Made by a program: the position numbers and the translations under genes. Under the pieces are notes generated by a model. It saw only the letters and a list, made by a program, of their open reading frames with translations. It was not told where the DNA came from and made no database searches. A stretch of DNA of 9,709 nucleotides from positions 1 through 9,709 of the forward strand of contig JAJYRV010000053.1 in assembly GCA_021793935.1 (NCBI GenBank). The letters run 5' to 3'. This document shows, piece after piece, positions 1 to 9,709 of the stretch. This DNA comes from Actinomycetes bacterium (lineage in GTDB: Bacteria > Actinomycetota > Actinomycetes > Actinomycetales > Beutenbergiaceae). Position 1 is the first letter of the stretch; every line of letters starts with the position of its first letter.

Positions 1-127
1 CGATATTCTCCAGACCAATCTCACCAAGACGGTCCAACACCGCCTCCTGACCATCCTCATCAACCCACGGGATCAACGAGAACATCTGGATCGACACCTC
101 ATCAGCCGGAACCGTCACACGATCCGG
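1..127 (-). repeat. Tandem repeat unit 2, partial (start of second TIM barrel)
   Basis: The first 127 bp of a second repeat unit, cut by the window edge. Positions 1-127 are base-for-base identical to 1063-1189, a period of 1062 bp, which is exactly 354 codons and keeps the frame. Identity stops at the same codon where the unit begins: the preceding codons differ (Pro-Asp here, Glu-Gln in copy 1). How many further copies follow cannot be seen. The absence of even silent changes points to a recent duplication or to ongoing gene conversion. Confidence 0.93.
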
Positions 128-3100
128 ATCAGGCTCCTCGCCCTCGGTGCTGAACTCATGCGACCACTCAGTAGTGGCACCCTCAGCAAGGACGTAACCG
201 TCCTCAGCCTCCGCCGTGACCGTCACCAACCCCTGACCAGGGTACGTACCGGCATCGATGACCTCGCCATCAACCAAATACTGCACACCCTCAACCTCAG
301 GAACAGTGAACGTATCATCCTCGGTACCCGGCTCATCAGTGAACGTCACATCCTTAGGAGTAACCTCCACCGGCTCCGAAGGCTCACCCGGTTCACCAGC
401 CTCCAGGCCAGTCAGATACTCAAACCCGGTCACGGCGAACTCTTCACCTTCTTCAGCCATGTCGTACTCCATCACGTAGTACGCGATCGGAGCATCCTGA
501 GCAGCAACCAAAATGTCCTGCAACGGCACATCACCTTCACCAAGATTGGCAAAGTCCGGACTCTCCCCACCAAGATCAGTGGCGTCCTTAATGTGCAACA
601 GTTCAATCCGATCACCGTGCTGCTCGATGAGCTCTGCCACATCAACCCCAGCATGCGCCGCCCAAGCCACATCGACTTCAAACGTCACATACTGCGGATC
701 AGTCTCAGCAACCAGGATCTCCCACGCAGACATCTCCTGACCATCGTGCTCATACGTAGTTGTGAACTCCTGGTCATGGTTATGACCAAAGAACTTCTCA
801 AACCCCGCATCAACAGCACGCTCACCAAGACGATTCATCGCCTCAGCAGTAGCCAACGTGTCCTCATAGGAATCAATACCCGGGGCCGGGAAACCACCCG
901 AACCCACATACTCCTGGCCCACCGTACCCACAAACTCCAACGTCTCATCGAAACCATCTTCATCAACGTCAAAGTGCGAGGACGGCACACTCAACCCAGC
1001 AGCATCAGCCTGCTCACGGAACTCCTCAGCAGAAAACCCACTGAAGTTCCCACCATAAGGCTCGATATTCTCCAGACCAATCTCACCAAGACGGTCCAAC
1101 ACCGCCTCCTGACCATCCTCATCAACCCACGGGATCAACGAGAACATCTGGATCGACACCTCATCAGCCGGAACCGTCACACGATCCGGCTGCTCAGCAA
1201 CCAGGAACTCGAGGGAGTCCAGGTCCACTCCTCCGGTGGTGCCCACGACGACTGAGCCAGAGCCTTCCGGCCGTTCGTCAATCGAGGCAGATACGGTTTG
1301 CCAGTCGTCGCCGTCCGTGAAATCGAACGTCGCGAATGGGGAGGAGTCATCGTCCCACGTCAGGGAGATCGTGCCTTCACCACGTGCGCGAACGTCAACT
1401 TGGTTGATGTCCTCGCCCGAGGGGGCGTGTGTCATGGCCATCGGCTTGAAGGTCAAGGTTTCGCCCTCTTCCAGTCCGCCGATGTATACACCAGCACTGG
1501 CAGAGGAATCGGTCTTACGGGATCCGCCAGTCGATGCGTCGTACCACTCAGCTTCCTGCAAGGCAGGCTTAAGGGTGAGGGTCTCCTCGCCCGTGACCGA
1601 GGGAACGTCGCCCTGCGGCTGATCCTCGTACTGGACGACGAGCGTCCCGAAGATCTTTTCGCCCTCGCCGTGGTTCTCGGCGCTTGCCTGAGTATCGATG
1701 GTGAACTCGCAACCAGTACCGGTTTCGAGCGGGTGAGCGTGTTCATCATGGCCAAGACCGAAGGTCCAGGACATCCGATCACAATCTGGGACATCGCCGT
1801 CTTCGGCATCCGTGACGGACACGCTGAAGTCGACCGAATCGCCCCAGCTGAAGATGGAACCGTCGTCGACGTCGATACTCAGCTCGGGGGCGGTATTACC
1901 AACGGTGATCTCCTGAGCGGCAAGTCCAACGCGTCCGTCAGAGTCTGTTGCGTGAAGGACGGCGGTGAACTGACCGAGCTCGTCATACGTGTGGGTGACT
2001 TCAACGCCTTCGGCGTCAATCTCACCATCACCGTTGAAATCCCACGTGTAGGTGATCTCATCGTCGTCGAGATTGATGGAATCGGAGGCATCAAAGGTCA
2101 CCTCGAGGGGCGCCTCGCTACCCGCGATCGGGTCGGCGTTGATGACCGCCCGAGGAGTCTTGTTGCCTTCCTCGGAGTAGTCGATCCGGTACACGCCGGC
2201 CTCGGGGTTCTCGCGGAAGAAGCCCTTTCCGTATTCCAAAATGTACAGGCTGCCATCCGGCCCGAACTCCATGTCGATGATTCCAGACCACTCATCTGCA
2301 GCCTGCTCGAAGAGCTCGTCGTTGGGCAGGAAGTTGTAGATTTCCGTGACCTTGCCATCGGTGGAGATCTCGTCCATCTCGAAGGCGGCGACGTAGTCCT
2401 GCGAGAACTCACCCATGAAGGCCATGCCGTCCCAGAATTCCGGGAACTGAGTCACGGACTCATTGGAGTCGTCGTAACGGAAGACGGGGCCACCCATCGG
2501 TGCCTGGCCGCGCCCCTCGGTGAAGGTGACGAGACCGTCCCATTCCTCGGGCTGATCGCCCGGGTCGTTTCCGTACCAGATCTGCGGCTCGGTGGTGGCG
2601 GGCAGGTCGACCACGCCTGTGTTCCACGTGGAATTGTTCACCGGAGCGGCGCAGTCGAAGAACTCACCTGGTTCCTCGTTCTCGAAGTCCCACTCGTTGT
2701 AGGCCCCGCCATCGTTCGGCCCGTGGCAATACGGCCAACCGCCAGCGATCGGCTCAGATGCCACCTGCCATTCGACGTAACCCATCGGCCCGCGCTCATC
2801 GCTGTGGTTCGGAGCATCCGGACCGTACTCGCCCCATGCGAGGGCGTCAGCAACGGGGTCATATGTCATCCGGAAGGGGTTTCGAAGGCCGAAGATGTAG
2901 ATCTCATCCCGCACCTTGTCTTCCGGGTATGCTTCCGGATCGTCGAGGGAGTCGAAGAAGTTCCCCTCCGGAATGGTGTAGGTCGTGCCCTCACCCGGCT
3001 CAGCGCCTTCCTCGATCTCGTCAAGCACCGAGATTCGCAGGATCGCACCCCGCAGGTCGTTGCTGTTACCCGCGCCGCGGCGGGAGTCGAGACCCGGGTT

Positions 3101-3877
3101 CATGCCTGGTGCGTTGTTGATCGGCGTGTACGCATCGGATCCCGGCGCGTCAGCGGGAGTGTTGTCCCCCGTCGACAGGAACAGGTTGCCGTCGTTGTCG
3201 AATGCGATGTCGGCACCGACGTGGCAGCACTGCCCGCGCTGAGCGGTGACCTTGAGGATCTCCTCCTCAGAATCGAGGTCGAAGGTCCCCTCTTCTGGGT
3301 CGAACTTGAAGCGCGACAACACGTTATAGCCGAGCCACTGATTCCAGTAGCTCTCATCTTCGCCTTCTGGCAGTTCCTCCGGCGCGCTCCCCTGTGGCGT
3401 CTGCTCAGGGTATGCAATCCCGTCATCGGTCTCGCCGGACATGTGAGTCGGGGCATACATCGTGTACACCCAGTTGTTCTCTTCGAAATCCGGATCGAGG
3501 GCGATCCCTTGCAGGCCGTCCTCCGAGTTCCGGTACACGTCCAGCTCCGCCACCTTTTCGGTGAGACCGGTCGCTGGATCGGTCAAGCGCACGACCCCGT
3601 CACGTGCGGTGTGCAGGATCTGTTTATCCGGCAACACCGCCATCCCGATCGGTTCGCCCGTGTCGCCGGTAATCTTTACCTTGTCGTAGTTGTTCCAGTC
3701 GAGTGCGGGATCGTCCGCGGCAAGAACGCTCGCGGATCCCTCGGGGTCACTTTCGCCCCCGTGGCCCGGATGTGCACTCGCTCCGGTGATCGCCAGTGGC
3801 ACTATCAGTGCAGCGGCAGCCGTAACTGCTGCGGCACTTCGGGCCGGCCATCGACCGACCCCTGTCCGTCTGACCAC
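1..3877 (-). CDS. Secreted multidomain PQQ-type sugar dehydrogenase with PKD, CBM6-like and tandem TIM-barrel repeats (C-terminus cut by window)
   Basis: One uninterrupted minus-strand frame of 1292 complete codons begins at GTG 3877 behind a strong ribosome site and continues past the left edge. Residues 1-35 look like a signal peptide (basic start, Ala-rich core, ASA before His36). Residues ~55-565 match the glucose/sorbosone dehydrogenase beta-propeller: CCHVGADIAF holds the likely catalytic base His219, followed by STGD, and GLRNPFR lies near 327. A PKD domain follows at ~572-657 (YTWDFNGDGEID), then a second Ig/PKD-like domain to ~768 and a CBM6-like domain at ~769-895. From 897 a 354-residue unit is tandemly repeated: a sugar isomerase-like TIM barrel (HNHDQEF, FEVDVAWAAH, LLHIKD, VMEYD) plus an Ig-like linker. 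It is presumably extracellular or wall-attached and acts on sugars or glycans; substrate unknown. Very acidic. Any C-terminal anchor lies outside the window. The domain calls are by motif recognition; the frame is certain. Confidence 0.92.
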   Translation of the reverse strand, partial: MVRRTGVGRWPARSAAAVTAAAALIVPLAITGASAHPGHGGESDPEGSASVLAADDPALDWNNYDKVKITGDTGEPIGMAVLPDKQILHTARDGVVRLTDPATGLTEKVAELDVYRNSEDGLQGIALDPDFEENNWVYTMYAPTHMSGETDDGIAYPEQTPQGSAPEELPEGEDESYWNQWLGYNVLSRFKFDPEEGTFDLDSEEEILKVTAQRGQCCHVGADIAFDNDGNLFLSTGDNTPADAPGSDAYTPINNAPGMNPGLDSRRGAGNSNDLRGAILRISVLDEIEEGAEPGEGTTYTIPEGNFFDSLDDPEAYPEDKVRDEIYIFGLRNPFRMTYDPVADALAWGEYGPDAPNHSDERGPMGYVEWQVASEPIAGGWPYCHGPNDGGAYNEWDFENEEPGEFFDCAAPVNNSTWNTGVVDLPATTEPQIWYGNDPGDQPEEWDGLVTFTEGRGQAPMGGPVFRYDDSNESVTQFPEFWDGMAFMGEFSQDYVAAFEMDEISTDGKVTEIYNFLPNDELFEQAADEWSGIIDMEFGPDGSLYILEYGKGFFRENPEAGVYRIDYSEEGNKTPRAVINADPIAGSEAPLEVTFDASDSINLDDDEITYTWDFNGDGEIDAEGVEVTHTYDELGQFTAVLHATDSDGRVGLAAQEITVGNTAPELSIDVDDGSIFSWGDSVDFSVSVTDAEDGDVPDCDRMSWTFGLGHDEHAHPLETGTGCEFTIDTQASAENHGEGEKIFGTLVVQYEDQPQGDVPSVTGEETLTLKPALQEAEWYDASTGGSRKTDSSASAGVYIGGLEEGETLTFKPMAMTHAPSGEDINQVDVRARGEGTISLTWDDDSSPFATFDFTDGDDWQTVSASIDERPEGSGSVVVGTTGGVDLDSLEFLVAEQPDRVTVPADEVSIQMFSLIPWVDEDGQEAVLDRLGEIGLENIEPYGGNFSGFSAEEFREQADAAGLSVPSSHFDVDEDGFDETLEFVGTVGQEYVGSGGFPAPGIDSYEDTLATAEAMNRLGERAVDAGFEKFFGHNHDQEFTTTYEHDGQEMSAWEILVAETDPQYVTFEVDVAWAAHAGVDVAELIEQHGDRIELLHIKDATDLGGESPDFANLGEGDVPLQDILVAAQDAPIAYYVMEYDMAEEGEEFAVTGFEYLTGLEAGEPGEPSEPVEVTPKDVTFTDEPGTEDDTFTVPEVEGVQYLVDGEVIDAGTYPGQGLVTVTAEAEDGYVLAEGATTEWSHEFSTEGEEPDPDRVTVPADEVSIQMFSLIPWVDEDGQEAVLDRLGEIGLENI
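128..1189 (-). repeat. Tandem repeat unit 1: TIM barrel plus Ig-like linker (354 codons)
   Basis: First complete copy of a 1062-bp in-frame repeat inside the sugar dehydrogenase gene, protein residues 897-1250. It begins PDRVTVPADEVSIQMFS and ends GEEPD. Offsets ~11-264 form a xylose-isomerase/AP-endonuclease-2-like TIM barrel with plausible metal-site residues: the HNH near residue 1032, Glu/Asp of FEVD near 1067-1069, His1095 of LLHIKD and Glu1137 of VMEYD. Offsets ~279-346 form a small Ig-like domain (VTFTDEPGTEDDTFTVPEVE) of the kind that separates domains in actinobacterial surface proteins. Codons ending in a pyrimidine are mostly T-ended here, while the gene upstream is mostly C-ended. 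Confidence 0.9.
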
Positions 3878-3880
3878 AAT

Positions 3881-3889
3881 CTCCTCCTT
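3881..3889 (-). promoter_or_regulatory. Strong ribosome binding site deciding the GTG start
   Basis: Read on the minus strand this is AAGGAGGAG, near-complete complementarity to the 16S anti-Shine-Dalgarno. The AGGAGG core sits 5 nt before GTG 3877. It fixes the start, and the resulting N-terminus is a credible signal peptide. Confidence 0.85.
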
Positions 3890-3905
3890 GACATTTCTGG
3901 ACGCC

Positions 3906-3920
3906 GGAACGGTTCCGTTC
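3906..3920. promoter_or_regulatory. Inverted repeat in the leader of the sugar dehydrogenase gene (possible operator)
   Basis: GGAAC-G-GTTCC (3906-3916) overlaps GAACGG-TT-CCGTTC (3907-3920). The element lies 29-43 nt upstream of the start codon and about 100 nt downstream of the predicted promoter. It could bind a dimeric repressor or form a short RNA hairpin just ahead of the ribosome site. The half-site spacing does not fit the actinobacterial LexA box. No regulator gene is visible in the window. Confidence 0.3.
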
Positions 3921-4029
3921 TCGCGACGACATTGAGCCGTCATCTTCGGCTGTTCCAGCTTTTTTGGGCCTCTGCTGCGAGAGCCACTTGCGTGAAGACA
4001 ATCGGCAGTGCCGTGCCTCACACCCAATA

Positions 4030-4057
4030 ACCGTAACAACCCTTTCGTTCATGTCAA
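4030..4057 (-). promoter_or_regulatory. Sigma70-type promoter for the secreted sugar dehydrogenase
   Basis: On the minus strand a perfect -35 box TTGACA (4057-4052) is followed by a 16-nt spacer and TACGGT (4035-4030), preceded by TGT as an extended -10. Transcription would start near 4022, giving a leader of about 145 nt before GTG 3877. The promoter lies between this gene and the polyprenyl synthase upstream on the same strand, so the dehydrogenase gene is probably transcribed independently. Confidence 0.6.
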
Positions 4058-4130
4058 GGCAAAAGTCAGAATCATCGAACCGCGCTTACGTAAATTTGAT
4101 ACCTCGTCGGCGGGGGTTTTCATCCCACTT

Positions 4131-5267
4131 TTAATCCTTCCCGACGCCGCCGTTTACGCATACCATTGCGGTTTCCACGCGCCCACTTACCATCTCCCAC
4201 ACCTCCATAAGTTCCGTTGCAACAGGGTTCAAGGAAACCGACTCCTCGATGACCTGGCGCGCGGTCGCCAGCTCGATGCGCGCCTGCTGCTCCACTTCGG
4301 CCGGGGCCCCCGACGAGGCGAGGTGCTGGCGAATCATCGACGCGGTACTCGCGTCCATGTCGGGTCGCCCCACCAGGTGGCCGATGTGTTTCCATACCGG
4401 GAGCCGACGAGCGTGGAGCATGAGGGTCGTTGCTTTCCCCTCTCGGAGATCGGACACCTGACTTTTTCCCGTCAGCTCCTCCGGGGCGAACACTCCGAGC
4501 AGGTCATCTGCGAGCTGGAACGCCTGCCCCAACGACCGCCCCGCCGCATCGAGACCATCCAGCGCACCGCCCGGGGCCCCGGCCACCAGCCCCCCGGCCC
4601 GCAGCGGGGCTTGAAATGAGTAAAACGCCGTCTTCGCCGCCGCGGTCTGCAACGCGCGCTCGATCGAGACTTCCCACAACCCGTGCGCAGCGACGACATC
4701 ATCGAGCTCTCCCGCGACGCTGACGAAGATCGTGGACCACATCAGATCGGCGAGCGCGCTGCGAACATCAGCCGGCGCCTCGATCGCCGCAATCAGGCGA
4801 TGGGCCAATGCGATGGCGAGGTCACCCGCGAGGACCGCCGAGGCTTCAGCGAGATGGTCCGCCGAACGATCCTCTGCGCCTTGTTCCAGCGCAGCGCTTC
4901 GCATACTCGCCGATAGGTTCGGGGCGCCACGACGGTGGGTGTCGTGGTCGATCAAGTCGTCGTGAATCAGAAAACCCGCATGCAGGAGCTCGAACGCCGC
5001 ACCAAGATGGGCAGCAGACGTCGGTTCAACGCCTCCAAAACTGTCGTGGACTGCCGTGACGAGGCGGCCGCGAAAATTCTTTCCGCCCCTGGCCGTGAGG
5101 CCCAGCTGGTCCCACAGCAACTCGTATGCCGGCCCGAAGCCGACGGCCCGTTGTGATTGTTCACGCAGAACTCCCGCGACAATCTCGTTGACGTCGGGAC
5201 CTGCTTCCATCGGTACCGCGCCGGTGAATTGCGGCAGCCAGCCGCCTCTGTGCGCTTCCTTGCCCAT
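4131..5267 (-). CDS. Polyprenyl diphosphate synthase (geranylgeranyl diphosphate synthase type)
   Basis: A 378-residue trans-isoprenyl diphosphate synthase that would condense isopentenyl diphosphate onto an allylic primer in the cytoplasm to give a C15-C20 or somewhat longer prenyl donor. The first Asp-rich motif is DDLID (103-107) in HDDLIDHD, without the two-residue insertion of proteobacterial CrtE, followed by RRG at 112-114. GDL is at 148-150. The second motif is DDLLG (254-258), where classical enzymes have DDxxD, followed by TGKS and DLREGK (273-278); this form is common in actinobacterial GGPP synthases. ATG 5267 is chosen because AAGGG lies 7 nt upstream; Met20 (5210) is an alternative. 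It is divergent from the operon carrying a UbiA prenyltransferase, so it is a likely source of that enzyme's donor. Product length cannot be fixed by eye. I see no convincing promoter upstream and no terminator after TAA 4131. Confidence 0.92.
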   Translation of the reverse strand: MGKEAHRGGWLPQFTGAVPMEAGPDVNEIVAGVLREQSQRAVGFGPAYELLWDQLGLTARGGKNFRGRLVTAVHDSFGGVEPTSAAHLGAAFELLHAGFLIHDDLIDHDTHRRGAPNLSASMRSAALEQGAEDRSADHLAEASAVLAGDLAIALAHRLIAAIEAPADVRSALADLMWSTIFVSVAGELDDVVAAHGLWEVSIERALQTAAAKTAFYSFQAPLRAGGLVAGAPGGALDGLDAAGRSLGQAFQLADDLLGVFAPEELTGKSQVSDLREGKATTLMLHARRLPVWKHIGHLVGRPDMDASTASMIRQHLASSGAPAEVEQQARIELATARQVIEESVSLNPVATELMEVWEMVSGRVETAMVCVNGGVGKD

Positions 5268-5314
5268 GTCGCTGCCCTTTCAAAAACCGCCTATGGTCGA
5301 GCTTGACTCCCGCG

Positions 5315-5342
5315 TTGCCTACACCGCCACTTTTGTTAGACT
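5315..5342 (+). promoter_or_regulatory. Probable promoter of the ino/ebo-type operon
   Basis: TTGCCT (5315-5320), a 16-nt spacer, then TAGACT (5337-5342) with a TGT extended -10. Spacer length and the TTGT-TA arrangement at the -10 match the promoter predicted for the sugar dehydrogenase gene. The start would be near 5349, leaving about 140 nt of leader before ATG 5490. It lies in the 222-bp divergent region 5268-5489 shared with the polyprenyl synthase. Confidence 0.45.
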
Positions 5343-5414
5343 ACGCAGTCCTTGCAGCGCTAAGCAGCGGAAGATCTGCTCCCTCTACGTTCTGCTATTG
5401 TGAAACGACTAGCG

Positions 5415-5430
5415 GAACTTGTCCAAGTTC
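5415..5430. promoter_or_regulatory. Perfect 7-bp inverted repeat in the operon leader (possible operator)
   Basis: GAACTTG-TC-CAAGTTC is a perfect palindrome of two 7-bp arms around 2 nt, located about 66 nt downstream of the predicted transcription start and 60 nt before ATG 5490. Its size and symmetry suit a dimeric repressor roadblock. It shares GAAC...GTTC outer arms with the element at 3907-3920, but the inner spacing differs (8 versus 6 nt), so a common regulator is only a guess. As RNA it could form a hairpin, but there is no T tract to make it a terminator. Confidence 0.4.
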
Positions 5431-5489
5431 ACCGCGATCAACGCCGATCGGTCTCTACAGCGCGGTCGGAGAGTAAAGAGGTGAGGGAT

Positions 5490-6674
5490 ATGAGCACGAG
5501 GACACAACCCGGCGATGCGGTCGCTCGGGGTCGAACGGGAATCTGGTTTATCGGCGCACGCGGTTCAGTTGCGACAACCGCAACAATCGGCTCTCTCGCA
5601 GTCACTGCCGGACTCGCCAACGACACCGGGCTCGTCAGCGAACTCGCACCGATCAACACGGCGGCCGATCCGATTCGACTGGCCGATCTCGTCATCGCGG
5701 GCTATGACCCGTCTGACGTCTCGCTCGTCGACCGGGCCGAGTCGCTCGCAGAGTCCGGTGTCTTCCCACCCGCGCTCGTCGCAGCGTTGAGAGCCGAGCT
5801 TTCCGCCGTCGACGAGCGGGTCAAATCTCCCCCGCAGGGCGCATCTCATCGGGAGACCGCCGAGGCGATCGAGCAGGACCTGCGCAACTTCCAGCACGAG
5901 CATGACCTCGCGCGCGTCGTCGTCGTTGATGTGAGCCACACCGAACCACCGGTCGAGTCTGCACCTGAACTAGCGCACCTGCACGCGCTGGAAACGGCCC
6001 TCGACGCGGGCGAATCCCCGCTGCCAGCAAGCTCATTGTACGCCTATGGCGCTTTCAAGGCTGGCTGCCCGCTCGTCGCTTTCACCCCGAGCCCCGGTCC
6101 GGCGCTAGGGGCGCTCACTGAACTCGCCGAGCGGTGCGGCGTCCCCTGGGCGGGCAGGGACGGCAAAACGGGGGAGACCCTTGTGAAAACGACCCTCGCC
6201 CCAATGTTCGCTACCCGGGCACTCAAGGTCCGCTCGTGGGCCTCGTACAACCTCCTGGGCGGCGGTGACGGCGAGACTCTGGCCGACCCGGTCGCCGTCA
6301 CGAGCAAGACGGCAACAAAGGGCGCCGGCGTGGATGCGATCCTCGGCCACCATGTCGATGGTCCCCTCCGGATTGACTACGTCGAAGACATGGGTGATTG
6401 GAAGACGGCGTGGGACCACGTGTCTTTCGAGGGATTCCTCGGCACCCGGATGACGATGCAGTTCACGTGGCAGGGCTGCGACTCTGCGCTCGCCGCGCCC
6501 CTCGTGCTCGACCTGGTGCGCCTCATCGCGCGCGCCCATGAGGTCGGCGAAGTGGGGCCCGTGGCTGCCCTCGGATTCTTCTTCAAGGACCCGATTGGCG
6601 CCGCCGATCATTCCCTCAGTGGGCAATGGCAGGCGCTGAGCGAGTGGTGCGAGAAGCTGGCGCTGACGCGATGA
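5490..6674 (+). CDS. Inositol-3-phosphate synthase family protein (cyclitol phosphate synthase)
   Basis: A 394-residue NAD-dependent isomerase of the myo-inositol-1-phosphate synthase family, which cyclises glucose-6-phosphate. The Rossmann entry GIWFIGARGSVATT is at 17-30. The segment GRDGKTGE (222-229) and SYNLLGGGDGE match family landmarks. Four lysines fall where the family keeps its catalytic or phosphate-binding lysines: Lys273 and Lys277 in SKTATKG, Lys305 in MGDWKTAW and Lys366 in FFFKDP. The spacing and text differ clearly from the housekeeping Ino1 of Mycobacterium as I remember it, so this looks like a separate paralogue, similar to the S. coelicolor SCO3243 type. ATG 5490 is chosen for AAAGAGG 8 nt upstream; an in-frame GTG at 5400 has no ribosome site. 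Its stop overlaps the prenyltransferase start (ATGA at 6671). Inferred role: making the cyclitol head group for the pathway. The exact substrate is unproven. Confidence 0.88.
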   Translation: MSTRTQPGDAVARGRTGIWFIGARGSVATTATIGSLAVTAGLANDTGLVSELAPINTAADPIRLADLVIAGYDPSDVSLVDRAESLAESGVFPPALVAALRAELSAVDERVKSPPQGASHRETAEAIEQDLRNFQHEHDLARVVVVDVSHTEPPVESAPELAHLHALETALDAGESPLPASSLYAYGAFKAGCPLVAFTPSPGPALGALTELAERCGVPWAGRDGKTGETLVKTTLAPMFATRALKVRSWASYNLLGGGDGETLADPVAVTSKTATKGAGVDAILGHHVDGPLRIDYVEDMGDWKTAWDHVSFEGFLGTRMTMQFTWQGCDSALAAPLVLDLVRLIARAHEVGEVGPVAALGFFFKDPIGAADHSLSGQWQALSEWCEKLALTR

Positions 6675-7540
6675 CAGAACTTCGTGATATCGCCGAACTC
6701 GTCCGCCTCCCTGCTGCGCTGACTGTGCCTGGCGACACCCTGGCGGGCGCAGCCGCTGCGGGAACGCTCTCGGGCTGGCGCCCGGTTGCCCTCGCTGCGT
6801 CGTCGATGTGCCTCTACTGGGCCGGGATGGCCCTGAATGATTTTGCCGATCGTGAGCTCGACCGGGCGGAGCGGCCCGAGCGTCCGATCCCCTCGGGCCG
6901 AGTCGCTCCATCGACGGCTCTGGGGGTAGCGAGCGGGTTGACCCTCGCAGGGATCGGGCTCGCCGGGATGACCGGACGCGAAGCTTTTACTTTCGCGCTG
7001 CCCCTCGCAGGATCTGTCTGGGCGTATGACCTCTTGGCCAAGCCGACCCTCGCTGGACCGCTCGTCATGGGGTCGGCCCGCGCGCTTGATGTGCTGCTCG
7101 GCGCCGCGGCAGCTCCCCGGCGGGCACTACCAGCGGCGCTCCTCATGGGCATACACACGACGGCGGTAACAGGCCTGAGCCGCGGCGAGGTGCACGGCTC
7201 CTCCAAGAAATCCGCCGCCGCAGCTCTCGCAACGACTGCAGCCGTCACCGCAGGCGCCGCCACCTCCGCCTTCCGTGCCACCCGGCGCGGCCCCGTTCCT
7301 CGCCTCGCGGGGGCGGCCTTTGCTGGGGCGTACGGCCTTGCCGTCGGCCGCGCCCAAGCGAACGCTGCCTCAACACCGGACGCGCAGTCGGTGCGGACGG
7401 CCACACGTCGGGGCATCCACGGCATGGTCCCTCTTCAATCCTCACTCATCGCCCAATCGGGCCGAACGCTCGTGGCCGCTGGCCTGGCAGCGGTCACCCC
7501 GCTCCTGAGAGCTGCGGCGAAGGTGGTGTCCCCCACATGA
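6671..7540 (+). CDS. eboC: UbiA-family membrane prenyltransferase, EboC/SCO3242 type
   Basis: A 289-residue, Ala/Leu/Gly-rich integral membrane protein of the UbiA superfamily, which transfers a prenyl chain from a diphosphate donor to an acceptor at the membrane. The first Asp-rich motif is intact: NDFADRELDR (56-65) followed by RPIPSGRV. The second motif is degenerate: YDLLAKPTLAGP (119-130) followed by ARALDVLLG (136-144) instead of a clear DxxxD. The C-terminal RRGIHGMVPLQSS is typical of the EboC-like branch as I recall it. The start at 6671 overlaps the preceding stop by 4 nt, with no good ribosome site, so translational coupling is likely. The stop likewise overlaps the next gene (ATGA at 7537). 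The neighbouring polyprenyl synthase is the likely donor source and the Ino1-like product a candidate acceptor; both are inference. Confidence 0.88.
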   Translation: MTELRDIAELVRLPAALTVPGDTLAGAAAAGTLSGWRPVALAASSMCLYWAGMALNDFADRELDRAERPERPIPSGRVAPSTALGVASGLTLAGIGLAGMTGREAFTFALPLAGSVWAYDLLAKPTLAGPLVMGSARALDVLLGAAAAPRRALPAALLMGIHTTAVTGLSRGEVHGSSKKSAAAALATTAAVTAGAATSAFRATRRGPVPRLAGAAFAGAYGLAVGRAQANAASTPDAQSVRTATRRGIHGMVPLQSSLIAQSGRTLVAAGLAAVTPLLRAAAKVVSPT

Positions 7541-8409
7541 CCCTGCGACTGTCCTACGGAACGAACGGTTTCAGCGATCACCGGCTCGGCGAGGCACTCA
7601 CCATCATCGCAGAGCTCGGCTACGTCGGTGTCGCGCTCACCCTCGATCATCACCACTTAGATCCCTTTTCGCCGAGCATTCGATCCGATGTCGCGGCGGT
7701 GCGCCGCCAGTTGGAGGAGCTGGAGCTCGCTGTTGCGGTCGAGACGGGCGCTCGCTATCTGCTCGACCCGCGCCGGAAGCACGAGCCGACCCTCGTCTCG
7801 GAAGAGGGACGCGATATCCGGATCGATTTCCTGCGCCGCGCAATCGATATCGCCGCTGACATCGGCAGCGACGTCGTCCACCTCTGGTCCGGCGTTCTAC
7901 CGGCGGGCACAACGGCCGATACGGGGTGGGAACGGCTACTCGAGGGCATGTCGCAGATCCTTCCCCACGCTGAGGAAAAAGCGGTGGACCTCGCCTTCGA
8001 GCCCGAGCCGGGCATGCTCATCGAGCGGCTTGCCGACGTGCAAGAACTTCGCGAGCGACTCGGCGAGCCCGCCCGCCTCCGCTTCACGATCGACGTGGGG
8101 CATGCCTTGTGCAACGAGGACGAATCACCCGAGGATGTCATTCGCGCCGGCGCTGATCATCTCGTCCATATTCAGATCGAAGACATGCGGCGCGGAGTAC
8201 ACGAACACCTGCCATTCGGCGAAGGCGAACTTGACCTCACCGCTGCGATCAGCGCGCTCCTGGAGATCGACTACCAGGGCCTTGTGTCCGTCGAGCTCGG
8301 CCGGCACGGCCCGACCGCGCCGACGACCGCTGCGGACTCGATCCGCGCGCTGCAGATGGCGATCGCGTCCGCGCAAGACCAGCATGAGCGACTACTAGGG
8401 AGGCAATAA
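7537..8409 (+). CDS. Sugar phosphate isomerase/epimerase (AP endonuclease 2-like TIM barrel) of an ebo-type operon
   Basis: A 290-residue cytoplasmic TIM barrel of the xylose-isomerase-like/AP endonuclease 2 superfamily. Candidate metal ligands appear in order: Glu145/Glu147 in LAFEPEPGM, Asp176 and His179 in FTIDVGHAL, His201 in HIQIEDM, His212/His214 in GVHEHLPFGEG, and Glu243 in SVELGRHG. It would isomerise, epimerise or dehydrate a sugar or cyclitol; the substrate is unknown. It occupies the operon position of EboE, the TIM-barrel protein of cyanobacterial ebo clusters, but is shorter than I recall for EboE, so I leave the symbol off; the S. coelicolor SCO3241-type isomerase seems closer. 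The start at 7537 overlaps the prenyltransferase stop, with AAGGTGG 9 nt upstream. The next gene begins 1 nt after its stop. Confidence 0.87.
   Translation: MTLRLSYGTNGFSDHRLGEALTIIAELGYVGVALTLDHHHLDPFSPSIRSDVAAVRRQLEELELAVAVETGARYLLDPRRKHEPTLVSEEGRDIRIDFLRRAIDIAADIGSDVVHLWSGVLPAGTTADTGWERLLEGMSQILPHAEEKAVDLAFEPEPGMLIERLADVQELRERLGEPARLRFTIDVGHALCNEDESPEDVIRAGADHLVHIQIEDMRRGVHEHLPFGEGELDLTAAISALLEIDYQGLVSVELGRHGPTAPTTAADSIRALQMAIASAQDQHERLLGRQ
8398..8403 (+). promoter_or_regulatory. Ribosome site fixing the GTG start of EboA
   Basis: GGGAGG lies 7 nt before GTG 8411, inside the last codons of the TIM-barrel gene. It supports the GTG start, which is the first possible start after the preceding stop. 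Confidence 0.75.
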
Positions 8410-8410
8410 C

Positions 8411-9091
8411 GTGACTACCCCGACCGGACCCGTCACCGATCTACTCTCCGACCAGGCGCAGCAACGGCTCACGGAGATGGTCGAAGCCATCGAGCAGGAA
8501 CCCCGGGCTATCGATACCCTCTTTCCGGCCGCCGCTCGGGAGGTCGGCCGCGGCGCCATCGATGAGTCCGATCCCGGCGGGATGCTGGGCCCAACGCTGG
8601 ACGACGCCGTTCGGGGCGTACTGCTCACCGCGCTACGCCGATCCGAAACCGACCCCTCACAGCTCTTGCGCCGGGTGTCGGATCTATATCGCTTCGGTGA
8701 TAGCGACGAGCGGCGCGCGATCCTTCGCAATCTGCACGAGCTCGGCCTGAGTGCCGACGCGGCGCCCCTCGTGGAGGACGCGGTGCGGACCAATGATACT
8801 CGGCTGATCGGCGCGGCGATGGGCACCTGGGCCGGGCATCACCTGGCTGTCTCCCCGTGGCGCCACGGAGTTCTCAAATGCCTCTTCACCGGGGTTCCGC
8901 TGGCCGCGGTGGACAACCTGAAGGCGCGTGCCGATGCCGAACTCGCCCGGATGGTCGCCGACTTCTGCCGTGAACGCGTCGCTGCAGGTCGCGACATCCC
9001 ACCTGACGCGGCTCGCGTTTTTGCGCTTTTCCCCGACGTTCTCGAGCAGTACCCCGACGTCGCCGCCGCGGGCGGTTCGGCCGACCTTTGA
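8411..9091 (+). CDS. eboA: EboA domain protein
   Basis: A 226-residue soluble, mostly alpha-helical protein without signal peptide or membrane segment. Family landmarks are clear: LYRFGDSDERRAIL (92-105), EDAVRTNDTRLIGAAMG (122-138), WRHGVLKCLFTGVPL (150-164) and ADAELARMVADFCRERV (174-190). EboA has no known catalytic activity. In cyanobacteria the ebo operon is needed for export of the scytonemin monomer to the periplasm, and homologous genes in Pseudomonas (edb) affect a nematode repellent. The helical-repeat look suggests a binding or scaffold role, which is inference. The start GTG 8411 has a good ribosome site and lies 1 nt after the preceding stop. This is the gene that most firmly identifies the operon as ebo-type. 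Confidence 0.9.
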   Translation: MTTPTGPVTDLLSDQAQQRLTEMVEAIEQEPRAIDTLFPAAAREVGRGAIDESDPGGMLGPTLDDAVRGVLLTALRRSETDPSQLLRRVSDLYRFGDSDERRAILRNLHELGLSADAAPLVEDAVRTNDTRLIGAAMGTWAGHHLAVSPWRHGVLKCLFTGVPLAAVDNLKARADAELARMVADFCRERVAAGRDIPPDAARVFALFPDVLEQYPDVAAAGGSADL

Positions 9092-9114
9092 CCACCACGA
9101 TTAGGAGCAACCAC

Positions 9115-9709
9115 ATGCGCATCTTCGACCCTCACATCCACATGACCTCCCGCACGACGAACGATTACGAAGCCCTCGCTGCCGCCGGGGTCCGGGCCCT
9201 CGTTGAGCCTGCCTTTTGGCTCGGGCAGCCCCGCACGAGCGTGGATTCGTTCATTGACTACTTCGACAGCCTGCTCGGCTGGGAGCGCTTCCGCGCCTCG
9301 CAGTTCGGAATCGCCCACCATTCGACCATCGCGCTCAACCCGAAAGAGGCGAATGACCCGCGCTGCGTGGGAATCCTCGACGTTCTCCCCCGCTACCTGG
9401 CCAAGGATGGCGTCGTCGGCGTGGGCGAGGTCGGTTTCGATTCCATGACCGACGCCGAGGAGGACGTGTTTCGCCGTCAGTTGGAGCTCGCGATCGAGCA
9501 CGGACTTCCGGCGATGGTCCACACTCCTCACCGAGACAAAGCGGCGGGGACGAAGCGCACTTTGGATCTCGTGCAGCAGACGAACATCGAACCGGGCATG
9601 GTCGTGGTCGACCACCTCAACGAAGTGACGGTCGAGATGGTCAAGGAGTCTGGGTGCTGGATGGGCTTTTCCATCTATCCAGACACGAAGATGGACCCGC
9701 ACCGGATGG
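9115..9709 (+). CDS. eboB: TatD-like metal-dependent hydrolase, EboB (C-terminus cut by window)
   Basis: The first 198 codons of an amidohydrolase-superfamily protein run off the right edge. The metal-site motifs of TatD-type enzymes are present: DPHIHM with His7 and His9, Glu105 in GVGEVGFDS, His136 and His139 in MVHTPHRDK, and His167 in VVDHLNE. The final Asp expected later in the barrel is outside the window. TatD itself is a nuclease, but the EboB branch sits in metabolic operons and probably hydrolyses a small molecule or phosphoester; its substrate is not known to me. ATG 9115 has AGGAG 7 nt upstream and lies 23 nt after EboA, so it is in the same operon. EboD- and EboF-like genes, if present, would be expected further right. 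Confidence 0.88.
   Translation, partial: MRIFDPHIHMTSRTTNDYEALAAAGVRALVEPAFWLGQPRTSVDSFIDYFDSLLGWERFRASQFGIAHHSTIALNPKEANDPRCVGILDVLPRYLAKDGVVGVGEVGFDSMTDAEEDVFRRQLELAIEHGLPAMVHTPHRDKAAGTKRTLDLVQQTNIEPGMVVVDHLNEVTVEMVKESGCWMGFSIYPDTKMDPHRM

Follow-up and report, generated by a model that had tools for sequence, protein, structure and literature searches.

We analysed a stretch of 9,709 nucleotides (nt; hereafter the window, meaning this whole stretch) from an Actinomycetes bacterium of the Beutenbergiaceae (GCA_021793935.1, contig JAJYRV010000053.1, positions 1 to 9,709, forward strand), which carries the left-hand portion of an actinobacterial ebo cluster in its Ino1 form. The ebo cluster is widespread and is required for scytonemin precursor export in Nostoc. 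EboD is a sugar-phosphate cyclase of the 3-dehydroquinate synthase type, Ino1 belongs to an unrelated family, and each of them turns a sugar phosphate into a carbocycle by ring closure. Our results indicate that Ino1 is present where other phyla carry EboD, and that the two cyclases never occur together in the loci examined, an exchange that we regard as almost certain. The Ino1 form also encodes a xylose-isomerase-like TIM barrel protein, TIM1. The pattern in which Ino1 and TIM1 stand in for EboD is well supported, and from it we infer that they take over its job. This ebo relative without the defining EboD is a variant form not reported before in the literature found; no report of the exchange or of the Ino1 form was found in the open-licence literature, and one elsewhere is possible.

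Exchange of EboD and Ino1 between ebo clusters

Named loci were the best 80 of 373 confirmed EboA places in genome contigs and, being the best-scoring, are Actinomycetota close to the window. To offset this best-match bias, a draw of 296 genomes, all from across Actinomycetota, was searched with the EboA model, which gave 14 EboA-positive genomes with 15 places; 14 of these places served as drawn loci, the fifteenth being the genome of L054. Plasmid loci were obtained with EboB as tblastn query, which returned 55 plasmid records, 23 of which were examined. Across the resulting 118 loci, which take in the window, Ino1 alone occurs in 97, EboD alone in 10, both in none and neither in 11, six of which are cut by a contig end. 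A TIM1-like gene is present in 95 of the 97 Ino1 loci and in none of the 10 EboD loci, where no match appeared even at an E-value of 1e-4.

The EboD side rests on these 10 plasmid loci, from Azospirillum, Gloeothece (showing only EboB and EboD), Aureibacter, Deinococcus (two), Roseivivax, Mycetohabitans, Ketogulonicigenium and Salipiger (two); in Ketogulonicigenium another sugar-isomerase gene, with no TIM1 match, lies beside EboB. Ino1 was found on 11 plasmids, seven of them actinobacterial, one from Gemmatirosa and three from the haloarchaea Halocatena, Halobaculum and Natronococcus. Plasmid loci with neither cyclase are those of Haladaptatus (L105) and of a Streptomyces (L115) that carries only EboB-EboE-EboF. 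EboD is absent from the window and from the 97 Ino1 loci. Moreover, when the EboD profile was run over 17 Ino1-form actinobacterial genomes (104 Mb, with 18 EboA places), the best match in each genome reached only 142-194 bits, as against 516-562 bits for true EboDs left out of the profile. Therefore, these 17 genomes have no EboD elsewhere, and the 142-194-bit matches are presumably 3-dehydroquinate synthases and their relatives.

The neighbours of EboA were counted by tblastn with proteins of the window and its relatives, up to 10 kb around the bait (the EboE query lacked its first 41 residues, owing to a mis-called start). Among the 80 named loci, EboA and EboB are each present in 80, TIM1 and EboC in 77 each and Ino1 in 73, while EboE and EboF, which follow beyond the stretch matching the window end, occur in all 80 and in 79, respectively. 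The exact order Ino1-EboC-TIM1-EboA-EboB-EboE-EboF was found in 68 of the 80 named and 12 of the 14 drawn loci, the remaining loci being mostly shortened versions of it; the cluster order is conserved beyond chance. The preliminary description of the window had supposed that its Ino1-like gene belongs beside EboA and had proposed a search with EboA as bait across Actinomycetota. Indeed, Ino1 is kept there in 73 of the 80 named and 12 of the 14 drawn loci. In six of the seven named loci without it (L010, L024, L025, L053, L068 and L070), the contig itself begins within the cluster; the seventh, L019, is rearranged. The two drawn loci that deviate are L093 and L083, the latter being an additional cluster in a genome that has Ino1 in its other one.

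In L019 (Streptomyces carpinensis, 5893-9081), an unrelated long frame enters a shortened EboC and Ino1 is gone, through rearrangement or misassembly. The EboE equivalog model NF035939 was reached in L046 (408.7 bits, cut-off 250). The TIM barrel gene of the window is not EboE; related loci carry the true EboE as a gene of its own, downstream of EboB.

The Ino1-type cyclase and the enzymes encoded beside it

The preliminary description had read six genes from the window, a prenyl synthase on the minus strand and then Ino1-like, UbiA-type, TIM barrel, EboA and TatD-like genes tightly spaced on the plus strand, and all six were recovered in that order by Pfam or NCBIfam matches. The plus-strand genes are spaced by overlaps of 4 to 49 nt and gaps of 1 to 23 nt, depending on the chosen starts, and the closest named locus is L001 from Candidatus Ruania gallistercoris. 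Ino1 (5491..6674, plus strand) contains both domains of its family (PF07994, 144.3 bits; PF01658, 112.6 bits). Its start is most likely ATG 5491 rather than GTG 5400, because the ribosome-site-like AGAGGTGAGG stands before ATG 5491; with this start, the divergent stretch between Ino1 and the prenyl synthase gene, where promoters are expected, would measure 223 nt (5268..5490).

The closest solved relative of the window Ino1 is the Archaeoglobus enzyme 1u1i (220.7 bits). The five positions aligned to Archaeoglobus N255, K274, K278, K306 and K367, which we take to be the active-site set of the Archaeoglobus fulgidus enzyme, are unchanged in 96 of 96 cluster Ino1 proteins, as is one aspartate (96 of the 97, each of at least 330 residues; the truncated L006 was dropped). 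Active-site variants of the Archaeoglobus enzyme are among the solved matches, and at both of the changed lysines visible in them the window protein has lysine. Because the active-site residues are kept throughout, the cluster Ino1 is likely a working cyclase. The solved matches also include the five-membered-cyclitol-phosphate synthase 6k96, which illustrates that the Ino1 family can change its product.

The cluster Ino1 is a dedicated paralogue. Against the mycothiol Ino1 model TIGR03450 the window protein scores 24 bits, far below the cut-off of 638. A further Ino1 lies elsewhere in 16 of the 17 Ino1-form genomes, G272 showing the cluster copy only: 13 genomes have TIGR03450 matches of 603-740 bits, the cut-off being exceeded in 11, and three more have a PF07994 copy of 313-317 bits outside the cluster. 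When the 296 drawn genomes were searched with a profile built from 25 cluster Ino1s, 13 genomes scored 529-613 bits and the next score was 356. All 13, of which 8 had supplied a row to the profile and 5 had not, are EboA-positive and have Ino1 within 4 kb of EboA.

In a tree of 49 Ino1 proteins (those over 500 residues cut to their last 450), the 31 cluster copies from Actinomycetota fall together in a single clade (support 99/97), and the mycothiol-type and cluster proteins separate with strong support. The three haloarchaeal cluster Ino1s group with a Halomarina Ino1 that lies outside any ebo cluster; the tree does not resolve the placement of the Gemmatirosa protein. The label 'in an ebo cluster' requires three changes on this tree, at least two of them across well-supported branches, so that Ino1 may have been recruited into ebo clusters at least twice; a single gain followed by losses may account for the tree instead. 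The fourteenth EboA-positive genome of the draw, G283, has a cluster without Ino1 and TIM1. Its Ino1 (342 bits), from another clade, is on another contig and is directly adjoined by a TIM1-like gene (48% identical), so that Ino1 and TIM1 are neighbours even there. In L118 (8249-10414), Ino1 and a TIM1-like gene lie side by side in a 19-kb stretch in which other ebo genes were not found, and the ebo cluster of the same genome lacks both.

The EboC-like prenyltransferase of the UbiA superfamily (6626..7540, plus strand, with ATG 6671 as a possible alternative start; PF01040, 69.3 bits) matched the SCO3242-family model NF045897 (358.5 bits, cut-off 260) and fell below the cut-off of the EboC equivalog NF035940 (148.1 bits against 250). 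SCO3242 and SCO3243 also turn up in two transcriptome papers. N71, D72, D75 and D79 of its first Asp-rich motif are invariant in 25 rows from both forms and the haloarchaea. Its best solved match is digeranylgeranylglyceryl phosphate (DGGGP) synthase 6m31 (74.2 bits), followed by chlorophyll a synthase (43.8 bits). TIM1 (7537..8409, plus strand; PF01261, 148.1 bits) falls among the sugar epimerases and isomerases, with IolI (1i60, 66.9 bits) as one of its matches, and its E155, D186, H189, H222, H224 and E253 are invariant in 40 rows. EboA (8411..9091, plus strand) matched NF035938 (151.7 bits, cut-off 50) and scored 57.8 bits against the stricter NF035937 (cut-off 320). Its high-confidence structural model is all-helical and HEAT/ARM-like (mean predicted local distance difference test score 94.7), in line with a putative helical-repeat scaffold as suggested in PMC6282210. 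EboB, a TatD-like metallohydrolase (9115..9709, plus strand, from ATG 9115, with TTG 9088 as alternative; PF01026, 50.3 bits, cut-off 27), is cut by the window end; it is 85% identical to the L001 copy and gave no match to any EboB-specific model. In L059 (5716-7131), TIM1 and EboA are fused in one frame of 471 amino acids, the type of fusion noted in PMC5133447 between an actinobacterial EboA and a xylose-isomerase-like protein, and the two may work together.

Proposed pathway and alternative readings

Yurchenko et al. (2016) named the ebo cluster and proposed an isoprenoid-cyclitol compound for its EboD form; they suggested sedoheptulose 7-phosphate as the substrate of EboD, which they placed among the sedoheptulose-7-phosphate cyclases (PMC5133447). 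Klicki et al. (2018) showed that in ebo mutants of Nostoc the scytonemin monomer stays behind in the cytoplasm, and they put forward a lipid carrier of the cyclitol type (PMC6282210), and the idea of a prenylated cyclitol is repeated in PMC6092422. The word inositol is absent from the main text of PMC5133447 and from PMC6282210. The preliminary description also suggested a prenylated cyclitol or polar lipid; the prenylated cyclitol fits the cluster, but in view of the proposals of 2016 and 2018 it is not a new idea.

In the pathway proposed here, Ino1, whose substrate we infer, would convert glucose 6-phosphate to an inositol phosphate, TIM1 would isomerise or epimerise the ring, and EboC, acting like the ether-lipid enzyme DGGGP synthase, which forms a prenyl ether at a hydroxyl, would link a prenyl chain to one of the hydroxyl groups of the ring. 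EboF would remove or split a phosphate, EboB and EboE would tailor the product, and EboA, as a helical-repeat protein, would gather the enzymes at the membrane. The resulting prenyl-cyclitol lipid would then help to bring a metabolite specific to the cluster across the membrane, a role that was suggested on the basis of the Nostoc mutants. A prenylated-cyclitol product of the Ino1 form is plausible: two unrelated ring-forming enzymes are exchanged within a shared set, which gives independent support for a cyclitol head group, and the window adds such support, not proof. For the whole chain, in which Ino1 and TIM1 replace EboD in making a prenyl-cyclitol lipid for metabolite export, we consider the balance to be even.

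Several points weigh against this replacement. TIM1 is missing from the Ino1 loci L032 and L057, and L083 has TIM1 without Ino1 in a genome that carries a second, full cluster. The EboD profile prefers 3-dehydroquinate synthases (210 bits) and the C7 cyclase 4p53 (183 bits) over the C6 cyclase 2d2x (143 bits), and a C6 product common to both forms is therefore disfavoured by sequence. Few of the exchanges are independent: all 31 actinobacterial rows fall into a single clade and only two label changes are forced by the tree, so that many or most of the 97 Ino1 loci trace to one event. The exchange tracks phylum lines, and shared ancestry could thus explain part of the exclusivity; the count of Ino1 in the hosts of EboD plasmids covers their plasmids, not their chromosomes. 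The Ino1-TIM1 pair of G283 may not serve its ebo cluster, since its Ino1 falls in another clade, and EboA and EboE matches are absent from the haloarchaeal loci L098, L104, L105 and L106. Furthermore, an aromatic acceptor for EboC would be conceivable by analogy, because quinolines are farnesylated in vitro by its homologue Ubi-297, which was tried on aromatic acceptors only and converted 6 of 14, including 8-hydroxyquinoline-2-carboxylic acid and quinaldic acid (PMC9235831).

Some of these points bear on other explanations. It is unlikely, in our estimate, that the exchange represents a change of product, with Ino1 leading to a C6 inositol-type head and EboD to a C7 valiolone-type head in a common prenyl-lipid scheme. 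The Ino1 family acts on glucose 6-phosphate and retains the phosphate, which we count for two such chemotypes, as we do the fact that TIM1 accompanies Ino1 only. The placement of EboD by others among the sedoheptulose-7-phosphate cyclases and its better match to 4p53 than to 2d2x point the same way. However, the remaining enzymes are shared, with the EboE equivalog reached in an Ino1-form locus and EboA, EboB, EboC and EboF recognisable across forms, and this shared set points to downstream enzymes that act on one common ring. Less probable still is that EboC prenylates an aromatic host metabolite and that Ino1 and TIM1, like the sugar genes on the flanks, are bystanders that only supply or salvage inositol. 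The quinolines farnesylated by Ubi-297 and a neighbourhood rich in sugar genes would agree with this. Against it, no cyclitol is among the acceptors described in that paper, and the Ino1 next to EboA is a dedicated paralogue that never occurs with EboD, which would be unexpected of a bystander.

We regard as very improbable an operon for the breakdown of sugars or inositol taken up from the environment, comprising an ABC importer, dehydrogenases and isomerases, with which the ebo genes are merely co-regulated. An importer, sugar isomerases and a secreted sugar dehydrogenase do lie close by in many loci, as does a Gfo/Idh/MocA gene resembling levoglucosan dehydrogenase (360.6 bits, cut-off 650). 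Nevertheless, the core includes biosynthetic enzymes, namely Ino1 and a membrane prenyltransferase; its seven genes are constant while the sugar genes around it shift in place and strand, and the seven actinobacterial plasmid loci carry the core, several of them with quite different neighbours.

Returning to the replacement of EboD by Ino1 and TIM1, a broader and rather doubtful extension is that all bacterial and haloarchaeal ebo clusters lead to one class of prenyl-ether cyclitol lipid that serves as a general carrier of small molecules across membranes. Its ring would be of the C6 inositol type and derive from glucose 6-phosphate, through EboD in one step or through Ino1 and TIM1, the latter recruited at least twice. 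If so, the published suggestion of sedoheptulose 7-phosphate for EboD would be wrong and the ebo head group would be a relative of inositol. The exchange makes the question of the EboD substrate testable by putting Ino1 and TIM1 in place of EboD, and Ino1, from a soluble and well-understood family, offers an entry point to the pathway.

Flanking genes, other lineages and known systems

The prenyl diphosphate synthase gene, divergent from Ino1 (4131..5267, minus strand; PF00348, 136.5 bits, cut-off 27), encodes both Asp-rich stretches, DDLID and DDLLG; its best NCBIfam match is the model for family 2 encapsulin cargo polyprenyl transferases (162.7 bits, below the cut-off of 450). The preliminary description had counted it as a member of the cluster, which the EboA-bait search did not bear out, with a prenyl synthase in only 6 of the 80 named and 3 of the 14 drawn loci. 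Five of the six are from Ruania, Georgenia or Oceanitalea, the sixth being a distant copy in L013, and only L001-L005 have it at the same place as the window. In the 17 genomes, which contain 74 PF00348 and 91 PF07995 matches, a prenyl synthase lies within 10 kb of EboA at 4 of 18 places against 0.26 expected (3 of 15 against 0.22 in the draw alone), the expected numbers being rough Poisson values that treat loci as independent. These four differ in place and strand, and each therefore seems to be a separate arrival; their above-chance presence gives modest support to a prenyl substrate.

A stronger neighbour than the prenyl synthase, left out by the preliminary description, is the secreted sugar dehydrogenase, found at 56 of the 80 named loci and at 10 of the 18 EboA places against 0.34 expected (8 of 15 against 0.29 in the draw alone), which suggests the oxidation of something outside the membrane. 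Other sugar genes near the cluster in the 80 named loci are TIM2 (55), SPI (55), Gfo (46) and an RbsB-like gene (41). In the window, the accessory multidomain protein of secreted type (2..4039, minus strand), which is not part of the core and exits the left end, has a GSDH domain (PF07995, 90.3 bits), a PKD domain (PF18911), a CBM6-like domain and a TIM barrel (PF01261). An exact direct repeat of 127 nt occurs at 1-127, the very start of the window, and at 1063-1189; it may be an assembly-graph edge at the contig end or reflect true tandem TIM domains. Rfam gave no match at gathering score within the window.

Outside Actinomycetota, the Ino1 form is present in Gemmatirosa and three of the four haloarchaeal loci, and the ebo cluster is thereby extended to haloarchaea with their prenyl-ether membranes. 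All four haloarchaeal plasmid loci (L098, L104, L105 and L106) contain EboB, EboC, EboF and two TIM1-like genes each, those of Halocatena being 28-34% identical to the TIM1 of the window, and a pyrroloquinoline-quinone-type sugar dehydrogenase gene lies near the Natronococcus locus. On the Streptomyces plasmids L100, L111 and L117, a gene of the ScyD/ScyE family directly precedes Ino1 and a multicopper oxidase gene follows downstream, reminiscent of the tie between the EboD form and scytonemin. In the two EboD-form clusters of Deinococcus (L099 and L110), EboA was not matched, and EboB is preceded by a small hypothetical gene that may be the EboG of PMC5133447.

The cluster described here shares EboA, EboB, an EboC-like enzyme, the EboE and EboF of its relatives, the tight operon and the proposed isoprenoid-cyclitol with the canonical eboABCDEF cluster of Bacteroidota, Cyanobacteria and others (PMC5133447). 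In contrast, the window form has Ino1 and TIM1 and no EboD, and its order ICTABEF differs from the canonical ABCDEF, ABFDEC, DECABF and other orders. In the scytonemin-linked cluster of Nostoc punctiforme, the ebo genes are needed to bring the precursor to the periplasm (PMC6282210), and ScyD/ScyE-type genes also lie beside the Ino1 form on the three Streptomyces plasmids; however, no scytonemin pathway was seen in the window, and export was shown for Nostoc whereas the Ino1 form is known here from its genes. Ubi-297 is likewise an EboC homologue within an ebo cluster, and Saccharomonospora is among the hosts given in that paper (PMC9235831), which lists EboD, whereas the Saccharomonospora loci L048 and L051 have Ino1 and no EboD match. 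DGGGP synthase (6m31) is the closest solved relative of EboC, but the match is weak and confined to the first half of the protein. Finally, the Archaeoglobus fulgidus (1u1i) and mycothiol (TIGR03450) Ino1 enzymes have the fold family and active-site residues in common with the cluster Ino1, which in contrast forms a separate, strongly supported clade.

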